Under the pieces are notes generated by a model that saw only the letters and a program-made list of their open reading frames with translations, had not been told where the DNA came from and searched no databases. Shown one piece after another: positions 1,551 through 6,946 of a stretch of 34,016 nucleotides of DNA (position 1 is the first letter of the stretch; each line of letters starts with the position of its first letter). The position numbers and the translations under genes were made by a program. The DNA comes from an uncultured Desulfuromonadales bacterium (lineage in GTDB: Bacteria; Desulfobacterota; Desulfuromonadia; Desulfuromonadales; Geopsychrobacteraceae), in the NCBI GenBank assembly GCA_945787295.1, contig CALZHQ010000047.1, positions 1 to 34,016 of the forward strand, written 5' to 3'.

Positions 1551-1579
1551 GTAAACCTTTTCTCTGCTGCTTCGTCTAA
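1551..1579 (+). promoter_or_regulatory. ECF-type promoter of the sigma factor operon
   Basis: GTAAACC (1551-1557), a 15-bp spacer and CGTCTAA (1573-1579). The same boxes with the same spacing recur at 3412-3440. GTAAAC-like -35 and CGTC-containing -10 elements are typical of ECF sigma factors. Transcription would begin near 1586, about 40 nt before the sigma ATG, which suggests autoregulation. Confidence 0.75.
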
Positions 1580-1625: not shown

Positions 1626-2252
1626 ATGACTGGCGTTGACACAACTTTCCCCAATCGCTACGCTCTGCCGATGCTGGCAGACGTCGAAAAAGCACTTGTT
1701 GAACAGGCCAGAAACGGGCAGGAAAGCGCTTTTGCCCAACTGGTCGAATCACACAGTGAGAAAGTGATTCAGCTCGCCTGTAGACTGGTCGGCAATCGCT
1801 CTGAGGCCGAGGAGATCAGCCAGGAAGCGTTTCTGCGCCTGTTCAAATCATTGTCGACCTTTCGCGGCGACAGCAGCGTCGGCACCTGGCTCTACCGGAC
1901 CGTCAGCCGGTTGGCGATCGATCATCTGCGCCGGGAGCAGATAAAACGGAAGCTGTTCTTTTTCCGTAGCGACGAACGGCAGGCCGACCCGGTTGAATTC
2001 GCGGTCGATCCAGCGGCGTCTCCGCACGAACATCTCCAAGCGCAGGAAACCGCGCAACAGCTGCAACAACTGCTGAAGCGGCTACCGGCCAGGCAAAAAG
2101 CGGTCTTTGTCCTGCGGCACATGGAAGGTTTGCCATTGAAAGAGATCGCCGCAGTGCTCGATTTAAGTGAAGGGACCGTTAAAGCTCACCTGCACCGGGC
2201 CGTCACACTGTTCCGTAACGAGTTTAAGGAGACAAAGGAGAATGTCTCATGA
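1626..2252 (+). CDS. RNA polymerase ECF sigma factor
   Basis: Directs RNA polymerase to a small regulon. Region 2 is seen around residues 30-100 (EEISQEAFLRLF, TWLYRTVSRLAIDHLRRE), followed by a variable linker, then region 4 around residues 140-195 (RLPARQKAVFVLRH, the helix-turn-helix with LKEIAAVLDLSEGTVKAHLHRA). There is no region 1 or 3, as expected for group IV sigmas. The ATG at 1626 has no clear Shine-Dalgarno; the ATG at 1671 (MLADVEK) is an alternative that better fits the usual ECF start. It is the first gene of a four-gene run with ATGA or GTGA overlaps and lies downstream of an ECF-type promoter repeated at 3412, so it is probably self-activating. The adjacent membrane zinc-finger protein is its likely anti-sigma. 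Confidence 0.93.
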   Translation: MTGVDTTFPNRYALPMLADVEKALVEQARNGQESAFAQLVESHSEKVIQLACRLVGNRSEAEEISQEAFLRLFKSLSTFRGDSSVGTWLYRTVSRLAIDHLRREQIKRKLFFFRSDERQADPVEFAVDPAASPHEHLQAQETAQQLQQLLKRLPARQKAVFVLRHMEGLPLKEIAAVLDLSEGTVKAHLHRAVTLFRNEFKETKENVS

Positions 2253-2695
2253 CAGATCAAAACCGTTGTGACCAACAGCAATTGACCCTCTACTATTACA
2301 ACGAGTTAGCAAATGACGCTTTGCAGCAGGTAGAGAATCACCTCAATGGGTGTAGAGAATGCCGGACCACTCTCGAACAGCTCAAGGCGAGTCTGGCGAC
2401 AATACCGATAACCAAGCTGGAGCTTGATTCTGCAGAAAAACACCGCTTTACCGAGCAGGTGATGGCTGCAACCAAATCATCACGCCCGTGGCGAAAGCCG
2501 ATCTGGGCCAGCACTCTGGCTGCGGGCGCAGCCGTGGTGCTGGCAATTATCATCATGCCGACGTCCCAACAACCGCTGGAAAAACATAATCCGGCCCTGG
2601 CCGAGATTGAAGTTCTGGAACAGCTTGAGCTGCTGCAGGACCTCGACATCCTGCAGGATCTTGAGTTGCTGGAAGCCCTGGAGGATCTGGGGTGA
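2249..2695 (+). CDS. Membrane anti-sigma factor, zf-HC2 type
   Basis: Likely sequesters the upstream ECF sigma. The N-terminal cytoplasmic part carries a zinc-binding ZAS pattern, Cys7 and His31-x3-Cys35-x2-Cys38, the hallmark of zf-HC2 anti-sigmas. A single membrane helix is seen at about residues 86-103. The periplasmic tail (about 105-148) is very unusual: residues 119-148 are almost entirely Leu, Glu and Asp (LEQLELLQDLDILQDLELL). A related run occurs in the next gene's secreted product. The start overlaps the sigma stop by 4 nt (ATGA), implying translational coupling. The anti-sigma role is inferred from domain and position; the function of the acidic tail is unknown but it is a candidate sensor surface. 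Confidence 0.85.
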   Translation: MTDQNRCDQQQLTLYYYNELANDALQQVENHLNGCRECRTTLEQLKASLATIPITKLELDSAEKHRFTEQVMAATKSSRPWRKPIWASTLAAGAAVVLAIIIMPTSQQPLEKHNPALAEIEVLEQLELLQDLDILQDLELLEALEDLG

Positions 2696-2901
2696 AAAAA
2701 TCCTACGTCACCCTCTCCTTCCTGTTTCTGCTGCTGGCGGCAAATCCCTGTTTGGCGAGCGACACGGATAGCACAACCACGGTAATTCAGCAGGAATTGA
2801 GTGCTGAAGACCGAGAGCTGCTGGAGATGCTGGAACTGCTCGAAATACTGGAGCTGTTAGACAATATGGAAGAGGTCGCAGCCCTGGAGGACAACCAATG
2901 A
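2692..2901 (+). CDS. Small secreted acidic Leu/Glu-rich protein
   Basis: A 69-aa protein with no family I recognise. Residues 1-22 are a clean signal peptide (KK, then a Leu-rich core, cleavage near CLA-S). The mature part of about 47 residues is strongly acidic, with roughly fifteen Asp/Glu and one Arg, and contains an amphipathic LELLEILELL run like the periplasmic tail of the anti-sigma. It starts with GTG overlapping the anti-sigma stop (GTGA) and ends overlapping the next gene (ATGA), so it is a true member of the operon despite its size. A role as periplasmic ligand or competitor for the anti-sigma or for the basic DUF3106 protein is inference. Confidence 0.75.
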   Translation: MKKSYVTLSFLFLLLAANPCLASDTDSTTTVIQQELSAEDRELLEMLELLEILELLDNMEEVAALEDNQ

Positions 2902-3359
2902 AACATCGAATCCTGATCCTGACCTTGTTACTGCTGATCGCCTTGTTCGGTTCAGCGATCGCCGAAAGCCAAGCGCCGCAACTGAGCGAGCAGCAGGCAG
3001 AGGCGCTCAAACGCTGGCAACAGCTGACTCCCGAGCAGCGTGAAACATTGCGCGAGCGCTATCGCAATTTCCAAGCCCTGCCCCAGGAACAAAAACAGCG
3101 CATCCGCGAGCGTTTGAAAACTTTCCGCAAGCTACCGGCTGAAGAGCGGGAACTTATCAGGCAACGCTTCGAACGCTGGAAGAGGTTATCTCCGGAACAA
3201 AAACAGAAACTCCGCATTGCACGTCAGCGATTTCAAAAAATGTCTTTGGAGGAGAAACAGGAACTGCGTCGCGAATTCCGCCAGATGCGCCAACTGCCTC
3301 CCGCAGAAAGAATGCAGCGAAGAAATGAGTTGCGCCAGCAGTACAAAAGAAAGCGCTGA
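2898..3359 (+). CDS. DUF3106 family secreted basic protein
   Basis: A 153-aa protein with a signal peptide (about residues 1-22, ending AIAES). The mature chain consists of repeated helical units of the form W/F-x-x-L-(S/T/P)-x-E-x-R/K (QQLTPEQRETLRERY, KRLSPEQKQKLR, RQLPPAERMQRR), the DUF3106 pattern. It is extremely rich in Arg, Lys, Gln and Glu, with a net positive charge and no Cys. The biochemical role of DUF3106 is not known. The repeated LxxEQ helical design recalls periplasmic CpxP/Spy/ZraP-like sensors, but I see no proof of homology. Last gene of the ECF operon, overlapping its neighbour by 4 nt and followed by a strong terminator. Confidence 0.85.
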   Translation: MKHRILILTLLLLIALFGSAIAESQAPQLSEQQAEALKRWQQLTPEQRETLRERYRNFQALPQEQKQRIRERLKTFRKLPAEERELIRQRFERWKRLSPEQKQKLRIARQRFQKMSLEEKQELRREFRQMRQLPPAERMQRRNELRQQYKRKR

Positions 3360-3376
3360 AAACGTAACATCCCCAC

Positions 3377-3402
3377 AGGGCCGGCTTTCCGGCCCTTTTT
3401 TT
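3377..3402 (+). terminator. Intrinsic terminator of the ECF operon
   Basis: AGGGCCGG (3377-3384) pairs perfectly with CCGGCCCT (3389-3396) around a 4-nt loop, and the stem runs into seven T residues. It isolates the operon from the second ECF promoter at 3412. Confidence 0.92.
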
Positions 3403-3411
3403 CATTTCCTT

Positions 3412-3440
3412 GTAAACCTTTCCTCCCCGGCTTCGTCTAA
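3412..3440 (+). promoter_or_regulatory. Second ECF-type promoter, for the repeat protein
   Basis: GTAAACC (3412-3418), a 15-bp spacer ending in GCTT, and CGTCTAA (3434-3440). Boxes and spacing are identical to 1551-1579. Predicted start near 3447, about 38 nt before the ATG at 3485. The same ECF sigma probably drives both. Confidence 0.75.
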
Positions 3441-3484
3441 TCCATTAAACACAGCCCCAGTCAAGCTTACAGAGGAGGAAAACC

Positions 3485-3904
3485 ATGAAATCATTATTAC
3501 TGCTGCTCGTTGCCCTGACCGCCTGCTTCACCCTGCCAACCTTCGCGGAAGCCAAACTGACCCGCGCCGAGGTTCGCGAACACCGCGTCGACCGTCATCA
3601 GGAGCGCAAGAGTTATCGCAGCGACCGACGCGGTGACCGGCAGGATTTCCGCCAGGAACGACGCTCGGACAAGCGGGAATTCCGTGGCGAGATGCACGAG
3701 AACCGGCAGGCGCTGCGGGCTGCCGACTCTCCGGCAGAGCGGCGTGAAGTCCGGCAGGAGATCCGTGCTGACAAGCAGGATTTTCGTATCGATCGGCATG
3801 AGGATCGTCAGGATTTCCGCCAGGAGAATCGGCAAGACCGACAGGAGTTCAGACAGGAGCGGCGGGAAGATCGAAGAGAGTTTCGTGAGGATATTATCGA
3901 CTGA
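3485..3904 (+). CDS. Secreted basic 11-residue-repeat protein
   Basis: A 139-aa protein not matching a family I can name. A signal peptide (about 1-23, ending FAEA) is followed by a highly charged region with a period of 11 residues, seen as DRQDFRQERRS, DKREFRGEMHE, DKQDFRIDRHE, DRQDFRQENRQ, DRQEFRQERRE and DRREFREDIID. One aromatic or Leu per unit is framed by Arg, Gln, Asp and Glu. An 11-residue period suits a long, slightly right-handed helix or coiled coil. A good Shine-Dalgarno (GAGGAGG) lies 6-8 nt before the ATG. It has its own ECF-type promoter and is therefore a probable effector of the upstream sigma factor. An envelope or polyanion-binding role is only a guess. Confidence 0.85.
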   Translation: MKSLLLLLVALTACFTLPTFAEAKLTRAEVREHRVDRHQERKSYRSDRRGDRQDFRQERRSDKREFRGEMHENRQALRAADSPAERREVRQEIRADKQDFRIDRHEDRQDFRQENRQDRQEFRQERREDRREFREDIID

Positions 3905-4011: not shown

Positions 4012-5136
4012 TCACGGTTCCAATTTCAGCAATTCATCCACCGGCACATAGTCCATATCAAAGGCATCAGCGACCCCCTTGTAGCAGACGACGCCATCCA
4101 CCACGTTGAAACCCTCACGGATACCGGCATCATTTCGAGCCACTGCTTTCCAGCCCTGGTTGGCGATCCGTACCGCGTAAGGCAGGGTCGCATTGGTCAA
4201 TGCCATGGTCGACGTCAAAGGGACAGCCCCCGGCATATTGGCGACGCAGTAGTGCACGATACCATCGACTTCGTAGATCGGCTCACGGTGCGTGGTCGCC
4301 TTGGAGGTCTCGAAGCAGCCGCCCTGATCGATGGCGACATCGACCAGCACCGCACCTTTTTTCATCGTCTTCAACATCTCCCTGGTGACCAGCTTGGGCG
4401 CCTTGGCCCCATGCAGCAGGACCGCACCGATCACGACATCGGCCTCCTGCACCAGTTCACGTATCGTAGCTGGCGAGGACATCATCGGGAAACAGTTCTT
4501 CGGCATGATTTCCGACAGATAGCGCAAGCGATTGAGATTCATGTCGAGCAGGTAAACCTTGGCCCCCAGACCACAGGCCATTTCAGCGGCATGGGTACCG
4601 ACAACACCGCCACCGATGACCAGCACTGTCGCCGGCGCAACTCCCGGCACCCCGCCCATCAGAATGCCCCGCCCCCCCTGGGAGCGCTCAATATACTTGG
4701 CGGCCTGCTGGGCCGCCATCCGCCCGGCGACTTCACTCATCGGCGTCAGCAACGGCAAACTGCCGTCCGGGTTAACAATGGTTTCGTAGGCGATGCAAAT
4801 CGCTTTGCGCTCCATCATTGCCCGGGTCAACTCTTCGGAAGCGGCAAAATGGAAATAGGTGAACAGGATCTGCCCTTCGCGGATCAGCGGATACTCACTC
4901 GGCTGCGGCTCCTTGACATGCATGACCATTTCCGACTTGTTATAAACTTCTTCCGGGCCGGTGGCAATTTCGGCGCCAGCACGGATGTAATCAGCATCAC
5001 TGAAACCACTGCCGTCTCCGGCAGTCGTTTCCACCAACACCTGATGACCATTGGTCTTCAGCACCTCAACCCCGGCCGGGGTCATGCAAACACGATTTTC
5101 TTCGGTTTTGATCTCTTTAAGAATTCCGACGATCAT
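4012..5136 (-). CDS. ald: Alanine dehydrogenase
   Basis: Interconverts L-alanine with pyruvate, ammonia and NADH. The ATG at 5136 gives 374 aa; its Shine-Dalgarno AAGGAG is 6 nt upstream, whereas a TTG at 5142 would abut it. With this start the catalytic residues fall exactly on the numbering known for mycobacterial Ald: Lys75 in HVKEP, His96 in FTYFHF and Asp270 in AIDQG. The Rossmann NAD site is GGGVVGTHAAEMA, around residues 176-188. The gene is divergent from an Lrp/AsnC regulator, the usual arrangement in which Lrp responds to alanine or a related amino acid and controls ald. In an anaerobe it may supply or consume alanine nitrogen alongside GlnA. Confidence 0.96.
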   Translation of the reverse strand: MIVGILKEIKTEENRVCMTPAGVEVLKTNGHQVLVETTAGDGSGFSDADYIRAGAEIATGPEEVYNKSEMVMHVKEPQPSEYPLIREGQILFTYFHFAASEELTRAMMERKAICIAYETIVNPDGSLPLLTPMSEVAGRMAAQQAAKYIERSQGGRGILMGGVPGVAPATVLVIGGGVVGTHAAEMACGLGAKVYLLDMNLNRLRYLSEIMPKNCFPMMSSPATIRELVQEADVVIGAVLLHGAKAPKLVTREMLKTMKKGAVLVDVAIDQGGCFETSKATTHREPIYEVDGIVHYCVANMPGAVPLTSTMALTNATLPYAVRIANQGWKAVARNDAGIREGFNVVDGVVCYKGVADAFDMDYVPVDELLKLEP

Positions 5137-5218
5137 TGGCAACTCCTTAGTGACACATGACGACGCAATAAACTAATAAAGTAATTTTAGCAGCAGATTA
5201 TGAAAATTTTCCTGCAAT

Positions 5219-5270: not shown

Positions 5271-5750
5271 ATGACTCAGAATCTGCAAAAATATCAAATC
5301 GACGGACTGGATCGAAAGATTCTCGCCGCCCTGCAGGAGGATGGCCGTCTAAGCAACGTGCAATTGGCGGAAAAGGTGGGCCTCTCAGAATCGGCCTGCC
5401 TGCGTCGGGTGAGGTTGCTGGAAAAAAGCCGCATCATCGATCGCTATGTGATGCTGATCGATCAAACTGCGATCGGCAAACCGGGAACGGTTTTCGTCAG
5501 GGTCACCCTGGAGGGGCAGCAGCAGGAGAAGCTGCAGCGGTTTGAAACAGAGATCGGTAAAGTCAAAGATGTGCTGGAATGTTACCTGATGTCAGGAGAC
5601 AGCGACTACTTGCTACGGGTCATTGTCCGTGATAATGAGGACTACATGCGCATTCACAACCGCCTGACCAGTCTGCCCGGGGTGCTGCGAGTACAATCCT
5701 CGTTTGCCCTGAAAACGGTGGTCCGGAAAACCGAGCTGCCGCTGGAATAA
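5271..5750 (+). CDS. Lrp/AsnC family transcriptional regulator
   Basis: A DNA-binding regulator that usually senses an amino acid. Residues 10-60 form the winged helix-turn-helix (LDRKILAALQEDGRLSNVQL, then VGLSESACLRRVRLLE). Residues about 75-155 are the RAM/AsnC effector domain (TVFVRVTLEG, VLECYLMSGDSDYLLRV). At 159 aa it has normal family length. It is divergent from ald, with a direct repeat between them, so it very likely regulates ald and perhaps itself. It ends 11 bp before the convergent ccdA gene with no obvious terminator between them. No strong Shine-Dalgarno is seen before the ATG. Confidence 0.93.
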   Translation: MTQNLQKYQIDGLDRKILAALQEDGRLSNVQLAEKVGLSESACLRRVRLLEKSRIIDRYVMLIDQTAIGKPGTVFVRVTLEGQQQEKLQRFETEIGKVKDVLECYLMSGDSDYLLRVIVRDNEDYMRIHNRLTSLPGVLRVQSSFALKTVVRKTELPLE

Positions 5751-5761
5751 GATCTTGGCGA

Positions 5762-6427
5762 TCAGAACGAGCTGAAGCCGATGGTCAGCATACCGGCAGT
5801 GAGGATGTAAACGCCAAAAGCGATCAGCAACATACTGCTGACCAGCCGAATCGCCAGCGGGTGGCGATTGATGATGCGGATTTTCTGTCGCAGCGTCTGA
5901 CTCGCGTAACCGACCAGCAGCATCGGGATGGCAAAGCCAAGGGAATAAAAAGCGAGCAGGAGGAGTCCAAACGACAGCTTGCCCTCTGTCGCAACCAGCG
6001 CCAGCACACCTGAGAGCATCGCCCCGACACAGGGAATCCAGACCAGCCCGAGGGTCAACCCCATGACCAGCCCCGACCAGCGCCCGCCACTGGTCGTTTG
6101 AATCTGCGCCAGGCCGGAGAGGTTTTTAAACAGATTAATGTCGAACAACATCAGTACGCCGAACAGAATCACCACCACGCCAGCTATTTTTTCCAGTACC
6201 GGGATATAGCCTGCAACCGCCCCGCCGAAAATCGATGACACAACTCCCATCGCCATAAAGCTCAGACTCAGTCCGAGTACGATTAACAGCGGCCGGCTCC
6301 AGTGATCTTCTTTCGTCCCGGTGACAATGATCGGCACCACCGGCAGCACACAGGGCGAAGCAACACTGGCTAAGCCAGCCAGTACTGCCATCAGGAATGA
6401 TGTCAAACTTAAATCAACCGGAGTCAT
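5762..6427 (-). CDS. ccdA: CcdA-type thiol-disulfide transporter
   Basis: An inner-membrane protein of 221 aa with six predicted helices. It carries the two reactive cysteines of the CcdA/DsbD family in typical Pro contexts: Cys26 in SPCVLP (helix 1) and Cys133 in WIPCVGA (helix 4). It passes electrons from cytoplasmic thioredoxin to periplasmic thiol proteins, for example in cytochrome c maturation. It follows a thioredoxin-like lipoprotein gene by 8 nt on the same strand, so that lipoprotein is the likely periplasmic partner. Function is known for the family; the substrate here is inferred. Confidence 0.93.
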   Translation of the reverse strand: MTPVDLSLTSFLMAVLAGLASVASPCVLPVVPIIVTGTKEDHWSRPLLIVLGLSLSFMAMGVVSSIFGGAVAGYIPVLEKIAGVVVILFGVLMLFDINLFKNLSGLAQIQTTSGGRWSGLVMGLTLGLVWIPCVGAMLSGVLALVATEGKLSFGLLLLAFYSLGFAIPMLLVGYASQTLRQKIRIINRHPLAIRLVSSMLLIAFGVYILTAGMLTIGFSSF

Positions 6428-6435
6428 CAGACAGA

Positions 6436-6870
6436 TCAGTTCGGAATGGTCTGCAGCAGTTCGCGAACTTTTTCCGCCGGATTAACTCCGGGTGGCAACC
6501 GCTTGAGCTCTTTACCACTGGCATCAGCCAACAACAGCGACGGCAGACCCCGGATACCGTAAGCATAAAAATACTGCCGGTCATCAGGAACGGTGGTTTG
6601 CACATAACGCACGTTGACCTTGCCTTTGAGCTCCCCTTCCATCCCTTGCAAAATCGAATTCTGCATCCGGCAAGGACCGCCGTTGGGATCGAGAAAAAAG
6701 ACCAGGGAATGCTCGCTAGCTGCGGTCGTTTGAGAAGCAATAGATGGCGCCGGGGTACTGACACCGGTTGGAGTTGCGTTTTGCCGTTGGGAGGACTTGG
6801 AAATTTGTGGATCTTCAGTACAGGCAAACAACAGCAGCAACATCGAGGCAAAAAGTAGTTTTTTCAACAT
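6436..6870 (-). CDS. Thioredoxin-like lipoprotein with one active-site Cys
   Basis: A 144-aa periplasmic lipoprotein. The ATG at 6870 is preceded by GGAG at a good distance; an upstream extension to 6912 lacks a ribosome site. Residues 1-16 plus Cys17 form a lipobox (LLFAC), followed by a Ser/Thr/Gln/Pro-rich linker to about residue 52, then a thioredoxin fold. The active-site segment reads NGGPCRMQ: the second Cys (Cys67) is kept, but the first Cys of CGPC is Gly64. The cis-Pro loop is seen as GLPSLLL. It lies in an operon with ccdA. The loss of the nucleophilic Cys argues against a simple disulfide reductase and for a monothiol or binding role. Confidence 0.85.
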   Translation of the reverse strand: MLKKLLFASMLLLLFACTEDPQISKSSQRQNATPTGVSTPAPSIASQTTAASEHSLVFFLDPNGGPCRMQNSILQGMEGELKGKVNVRYVQTTVPDDRQYFYAYGIRGLPSLLLADASGKELKRLPPGVNPAEKVRELLQTIPN

Positions 6871-6946
6871 AAATAGCTCCGCAAAAAAGACTTTAATTAT
6901 TCGAGCTTCCAAATATATCTATTTTGCGGTTTGCATGCAAGTTAGT

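Follow-up and report, generated by a model that had tools for sequence, protein, structure and literature searches.

Gene content and layout of the locus

We analysed a stretch of 34,016 nucleotides from an uncultured Desulfuromonadales bacterium of the family Geopsychrobacteraceae (GenBank assembly GCA_945787295.1, contig CALZHQ010000047.1, positions 1 to 34,016 of the forward strand). We refer to this whole stretch as the window. Our subject is a chain of four genes near its start, which encodes an extracytoplasmic function (ECF) sigma factor, an anti-sigma factor with a single transmembrane (TM) helix, a small secreted protein and a protein of the family DUF3106. The features of the locus, with their positions in the window, are as follows:

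1551..1579, +, ECF promoter copy 1, GTAAACCTTT-N9-CTTCGTCTAA, 46 bases 5' of the sigma start
1626..2252, +, ECF sigma factor, 208 aa (Sigma70_r2, E 1.7e-18; Sigma70_r4_2, E 2.8e-19)
2249..2695, +, zf-HC2 zinc-type single-TM anti-sigma factor, 148 aa (PF13490, E 6.4e-6, over the cut-off)
2597..2692, +, acidic Leu/Glu tail of the anti-sigma factor, predicted periplasmic, residues 117-148 (net charge -11, 6-residue repeat)
2692..2901, +, acidic protein of 69 aa with a GTG start, predicted to be secreted (3 homologs with an invariant core)
2815..2892, +, core of the small protein, aligning without gaps to the anti-sigma tail (14/26 identical)
2898..3359, +, DUF3106 protein, 153 aa, basic, predicted to be secreted, with an 18-residue helical repeat (PF11304, E 1.8e-22)
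3378..3402, +, terminator-like hairpin and T run ending the operon (by eye from the sequence)
3412..3440, +, ECF promoter copy 2, the same bipartite site, 44 bases 5' of the repeat-protein start
3485..3904, +, 11-mer repeat protein of mixed charge, predicted to be secreted, outside the operon (lag-11 identity 0.31; 36 K/R, 32 D/E)

The four genes form a tight chain in which each junction is an overlap of 4 bases. Gene order and coordinates agree with an earlier note on this DNA (the sequence-only reading), which had recorded neither these overlaps nor the two identical promoters, nor the 6- and 18-residue periods described below. The sigma and anti-sigma pair has the features of a class I zinc-type anti-sigma factor with its ECF sigma, namely sigma regions 2 and 4, the HxxxCxxC motif and a TM helix, which the hydrophobicity places at residues ∼88-104. 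The zinc residues C7, H31, C35 and C38 are invariant across 13 aligned sequences (window included). Secretion and topology of the operon proteins were predicted from their sequences, and the charges given for mature proteins rest on cleavage sites picked by eye.

Our preferred interpretation, to which we assign a probability of roughly 0.5, is an autoregulated ECF envelope-stress operon in which the anti-sigma tail would be guarded by DUF3106, with the small protein as an optional decoy that would compete with it.

Conservation of the acidic tail and its pairing with DUF3106

Residues 117-148 of the anti-sigma factor contain 11 D/E and no K/R. Of 195 related genomes, 45 yielded orthologs in a search with the alignment of 13 anti-sigma sequences. 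We read 47 loci and kept 44, the window included; L045 and L052 had no open frame for an anti-sigma factor and in L053 the match lay inside a frame of 456 aa. Two of the 44 orthologs (L074 and L075) share genome G005. These two operon copies have identical anti-sigma tails, with slightly differing small proteins and DUF3106 proteins. A profile search found a DUF3106-like frame after the anti-sigma gene in all 44 ortholog operons (a pattern count gave 32/44), and the net charge of the tail was negative in every one of them, ranging from -12 to -4. The mean pairwise identity across the orthologs was 0.436 for the tail, compared to 0.355 for the zinc domain and only 0.173 for the adjoining spacer. 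Similarly, the ratio of nonsynonymous to synonymous differences (pN/pS) was lowest in the tail with 0.18, compared to 0.36-0.52 for the other parts of the anti-sigma factor; these values come from 16 hand-chosen near-neighbour pairs with shared members. Identity and pN/pS thus indicate that the tail is more strongly constrained than the sigma-binding domain.

In order to avoid selecting on the tail, we assembled a wider sample starting from DUF3106 (PF11304, E ≤ 1e-8). The family was present in 63 of 297 genomes from the phylum of the nearest relative of the window, L001 (a 'Deltaproteobacteria' metagenome-assembled genome, presumably Desulfobacterota), and in 38 of 398 genomes of Pseudomonadota, the phylum of Nisaea. 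Of these 101 genomes, three (G001, G048 and G068) were already in the ortholog set and 98 DUF3106 loci were fetched anew; second matches in G768 and G574 were left out. An ECF sigma and a TM anti-sigma factor lay directly upstream of DUF3106 at 93 of the 98 loci, which span two phyla. At the other five we found no sigma; L193 and L195 lie at a contig edge, and L191, L200 and L206 had room for one. The tail was net negative in 91 of the 93 anti-sigma factors, the exceptions being L154 (0) and L179 (+1). The row for L212 resembles the small protein rather than a tail, so that a stricter count is 90/92. The tails come in four flavours, for which we coined names: Leu/Glu tails, FYxWL tails, tails with the motif VDxALLxDDLPPxAY (which probably correspond to DUF3619) and a rest class.

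As controls we read 55 zf-HC2 loci, which yielded 12 TM proteins lacking a DUF3106-like frame downstream. One of these, L256, is the ortholog in G014, identical to the gene read in L067, and was dropped, so that 11 controls remained; the other loci had no TM helix, were members of the module or could not be parsed. In 10 of the 11 controls the tail charge was between -3 and +4, and the eleventh had a net charge of -10 spread over 106 aa. Judged by sequence, the locus is an ECF, anti-sigma and periplasmic-modulator kind of system. The sequence-only reading was right about the core pairing of an acidic-tail anti-sigma factor with DUF3106, and this pairing is wider than it saw.

The DUF3106 protein

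The window protein matches PF11304 with 80.2 bits (Pfam cut-off 24.3). Its mature form has a net charge of +19 and an isoelectric point of 11.4, strongly basic as the sequence-only reading had claimed, and contains no His or Cys. The structural model consists of helices of ∼15-16 residues, spaced at a period of 18 residues, with a mean predicted local distance difference test score (pLDDT) of 85.7 and a predicted template modelling score of 0.51. The same period appears in the sequences: across the family the identities at lags 18 and 36 are 0.20 and 0.17, compared to a level of about 0.09, and in the window protein it reaches 0.29 at lag 18. Sequence and fold searches returned no significant fold match or solved relative, a negative that does not bear on the fold itself. 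When 11 DUF3106 proteins were compared with Pfam, 10 families reached E ≤ 0.01 in at least one of them, and CpxP/Spy (LTXXQ) was not one of these families; the 10 distinct PDB sequences that DUF3106 matched likewise included no CpxP/Spy chain. The family PF13801 (Metal_resist) matched the window protein with E 0.0014, which is below the curated cut-off, and reached E ≤ 0.01 in 3 of the 11 family members.

The small secreted look-alike of the tail

The mature small protein has a net charge of -14. No Pfam or NCBIfam family over the cut-off was found for it or for two homologs, and its core is invariant in four sequences (window and 3 homologs). The ungapped alignment to the tail of its own operon has 14 identities over 26 residues and a score of 67, whereas shuffles of the core scored only 33.0 on average (standard deviation 7.2), giving p 0.003, the minimum for 300 shuffles. 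The likeness between the two proteins that the sequence-only reading had seen is real. As the core shuffles keep the composition, the small protein matches the tail in residue order, beyond composition. The small protein was encoded in 22 of the 44 ortholog operons and in 16 of the 93 operons of the wider sample; a tail look-alike thus sits directly 5' of DUF3106 in 38 of the 137 operons read. The match to the tail of the same operon beat the core shuffles (p ≤ 0.05) in 21/22 ortholog and 9/16 wider operons.

In FYxWL-type operons (L171, L173, L185, L214 and L221) the small protein carries another motif, ELLEFLGEWExDDGxWVDP. A small gene of this class also precedes DUF3106 in L191 and L206, which have no nearby sigma. 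By sequence these proteins make up another family of small acidic secreted proteins encoded 5' of DUF3106; two of them, L173 and L206, had no match in Pfam or NCBIfam. In the FYxWL-type operons they do not resemble the tail.

In a sigma tree (FastTree) the 22 ortholog operons that lack the small protein form two groups, one starred clade with 9 members and one clade with 13 (support 91), the latter made up of two starred clades with 6 and 7 members. The pattern suggests that part of the clade lost the small protein, one to three times; the tree has long branches that meet and alone cannot separate loss from gain.

Repeat periods of tail, small protein and DUF3106

For the Leu/Glu ortholog tails (35 after dereplication) we detected a clear period of 6 residues, with z-scores at lag 6 of 21.8 for hydrophobic and 14.7 for acidic residues. 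The Leu/Glu small proteins (n=29) showed the same period (15.8 and 6.5, respectively). At lag 7 the tails were below chance (-4.8 and -5.1), which indicates that they are not ordinary heptad coiled coils. Three of these 6-residue units would fit one 18-residue unit of DUF3106. For the Leu/Glu branch such a 3:1 fit is suggestive, no more, of a register between a groove and a helix. The model of the anti-sigma factor also places a helix at residues 117-145, with a pLDDT below 40.

Promoters, candidate regulon and neighbouring genes

The bipartite site GTAAACCTTT-N9-CTTCGTCTAA has two exact matches in the window, compared to an expected mean of 0.00 over 100 shuffles. The copy before the sigma gene points to autoregulation, provided that the promoter is used. 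We built a weight matrix from 14 sites and called a site promoter-like at a score of at least 13.5. Such a site lies 5' of the sigma gene in 34 of the 44 ortholog loci. As 12 of the 44 had supplied training sites, we also counted the loci outside the training set and found a site in 22 of 32. L070 and L071, where the site precedes an over-long sigma frame, were left out of the promoter count. Shuffled loci (0.9 Mb) contained a single site scoring 14 or more.

The hairpin at 3378-3402 and the second promoter copy both precede the 11-mer repeat gene and thus place it outside the operon. The sequence-only reading had described its product as a strongly basic secreted protein and as a basic partner. 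Neither description held: the mature protein has 36 K/R and 32 D/E (net +4) and its counterpart in L001 has a net charge of -1. The charge pattern proposed for the four proteins was accordingly correct for three of them. Sequence and position indicate that the near-neutral repeat protein is a separate regulon member rather than an operon gene or a basic partner. In L277 a close relative of it stands behind the same promoter, and promoter-like sites precede secreted repeat proteins in L001, L040, L054, L057, L065 and L079.

Other genes were also found near such sites. A gene for an outer-membrane barrel lies directly behind the same ECF promoter in L001 (7314-8186, PF13557) and, judged by eye, in L275, L278 and L279. 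Genes for efflux outer-membrane proteins take this place in L269, L270 and L273 (PF02321 for the L269 protein). In L065, L067, L074 and L075 genes for glycine-zipper lipoproteins follow promoter-like sites that lie close to the sigma operon but on the other strand (PF05433 for the L065 protein). By gene content, the candidate regulon is one of the envelope.

Further downstream in the window we noted by eye a divergent pair resembling alanine dehydrogenase (4012-5142, -) and an Lrp/AsnC regulator (5271-5750, +), as well as a CcdA-type membrane protein-like gene beside a thioredoxin-like lipoprotein gene (5762-6427, - and 6436-6912, -).

Proposed mechanism and alternative explanations

In the mechanism that we favour, the zinc-type anti-sigma factor would retain the sigma factor in the cytoplasm and extend its short acidic helix into the periplasm, where the basic helical-repeat protein DUF3106 would bind it and keep the anti-sigma factor intact or active. 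Stress would draw DUF3106 off, the exposed tail would allow the anti-sigma factor to be cleaved or reshaped, and the freed sigma factor would transcribe its own operon together with envelope genes, here presumably that of the secreted repeat protein and in relatives those of the outer-membrane barrel, the efflux outer-membrane protein and the glycine-zipper lipoprotein. Where present, the small protein would mimic the tail helix in free form, compete for DUF3106 and tune the threshold. DUF3106, itself encoded in the autoregulated operon, would feed back negatively, and the decoy would oppose this. The sequences show the genes with their overlaps, the promoter sites, the conservation and the look-alike helix; binding of the tail by DUF3106, the competition, the signal and the proteolysis are all steps that we infer.

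Several results weigh against this interpretation. The sequence-only reading had expected orthologous operons to keep both the acidic tail and the small protein, which failed in part: none of the 44 orthologs lacks the tail, but 22 lack the small protein, so the switch must be able to work without a decoy. The ortholog L001 narrowly misses the threshold for the tail match (p 0.056), and the match was not significant in 7 of the 16 wider operons (L171, L173, L185, L214, L158 with p 0.08, L168 and L201). The fifth FYxWL-type operon, L221, passes on a match of 6 residues only. Thirteen FYxWL tails show the 6-residue period weakly (z 2.7 and 1.3) and 16 tails of the VDxALLxDDLPPxAY type not at all (z -2.6 and 0.2), hence the data do not point to a groove fit shared by every DUF3106 protein. 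Across 32 operons the charge of DUF3106 did not correlate with that of the tail (rho 0.14, p 0.43). To our knowledge short periplasmic tails all tend to avoid positive charge, which makes acidity alone weak evidence, and the set of 11 zf-HC2 controls is small and was selected without regard to neighbouring sigma genes. Finally, the model of the anti-sigma factor is poor, with a pLDDT near 35 in the tail.

The absence of charge co-variation is also what one might expect if DUF3106 were an output of the system, a periplasmic chaperone of the Spy kind, and the acidic tail an element for protease entry or stability that does not bind DUF3106. Many stress sigma operons carry chaperones and DUF3106 does lie downstream of an autoregulated promoter. 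Such an arrangement would leave unexplained why acidic tail and DUF3106 co-occur across two phyla and several tail flavours, why a look-alike of the tail directly precedes DUF3106 in more than a quarter of the operons read and why the 11 TM zf-HC2 proteins without DUF3106 have no such tails; we consider it unlikely, though worth keeping in view. We judge it equally unlikely that the small protein is a co-guard, which would share the DUF3106 solenoid with the tail or cover a sticky basic surface of DUF3106 until needed. The helix repeat that Leu/Glu-type small proteins share with the tail would suit this role, as would the tight gene overlap, which suggests coupled translation, and the loci L191 and L206, where a small gene neighbours DUF3106 with no sigma close by. 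It sits poorly with whole subclades that keep tail and DUF3106 and lack the small protein.

Metal sensing in the manner of CnrYXH, with DUF3106 in the place of CnrX, seems improbable to us. It could draw on the PF13801 match and on the efflux outer-membrane genes behind the promoter in three relatives, but that match stays below the cut-off, the mature window protein is devoid of His and Cys and the anti-sigma factor is of the zinc type, unlike CnrY. Least probable by far is a chance likeness between two unrelated Leu/Glu-rich helices of low complexity. Tail and small protein are indeed both compositionally biased, but shuffles that keep the composition were beaten in nearly all ortholog operons with a small protein, its core is invariant and pN/pS within the anti-sigma factor is lowest in the tail.

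Comparison with known systems

The guard step of the favoured mechanism is modelled on two precedents. MucB guards MucA, a helix of MucA provides the main contact, and lipids release MucB and expose MucA to AlgW (PMC7400510). CpxP is bound to CpxA by charge and released by salt or misfolded protein (PMC4160245). Like RseA/RseB and MucA/MucB (sigma-E and AlgU), the operon combines an ECF sigma, a single-TM anti-sigma factor and a separate putative guard in the periplasm. The sequence-only reading had claimed a design different from RseA/RseB, which was too strong with respect to the logic, as RseB/MucB also guard an anti-sigma tail. The differences lie in the parts: the tail here has only ∼32-45 residues, DUF3106 is helical and basic, and the operon encodes a secreted look-alike of the tail. 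No Pfam match to RseA or MucB/RseB was found in the anti-sigma factor, the small protein or DUF3106 at E ≤ 1. With CpxP-CpxA the system shares a basic helical periplasmic accessory and an acidic sensor part, and we propose a charge-based contact here as well. CpxA is a two-component kinase, whereas the sensor here would be an anti-sigma factor, and DUF3106 has no Pfam match to CpxP/Spy.

CnrYXH likewise consists of an ECF sigma, an anti-sigma factor and a separate periplasmic sensor protein (PMC4598750); it differs from our operon in the points already given, namely the zinc-type anti-sigma factor, the metal-resistance match below the cut-off and the lack of His and Cys in the window DUF3106. 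In PhyR-NepR partner switching, a protein that mimics one partner competes and thereby sets the sigma factor free (PMC4598750). Mimicry of one partner and competition are also proposed here; the PhyR mimic resembles the sigma factor and acts in the cytoplasm, whereas here the anti-sigma tail would be copied in the periplasm. We found no sigma-like domain in the small protein (Pfam, NCBIfam), which sets it apart from a PhyR-type protein.

The SbrI/SbrR pair of P. aeruginosa may belong to the DUF3106-type systems as well. It is possible, and we suggest it tentatively, that the ECF operons with DUF3106 in Pseudomonadota and presumably Desulfobacterota form one undescribed class, in which a basic solenoid of 18-residue repeats reads a short acidic periplasmic tail and, in the Leu/Glu branch, the switch is set by a tethered and a free copy of one helix that compete, perhaps in a 3:1 register.

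Implications

In the open-access literature searched we found no paper naming DUF3106 or DUF3619, and among the matches listed there was no description of an anti-sigma tail wired to a secreted decoy. The association of DUF3106 with ECF sigma factors is useful for annotation whatever the mechanism, and the proposed mechanism gives the family a testable role. The layout, with an anti-sigma tail and its secreted look-alike in one operon, is unusual. If our interpretation is true, the competition would be a periplasmic counterpart of sigma mimicry, and the threshold of the envelope alarm would be set by the dosage of a free peptide.

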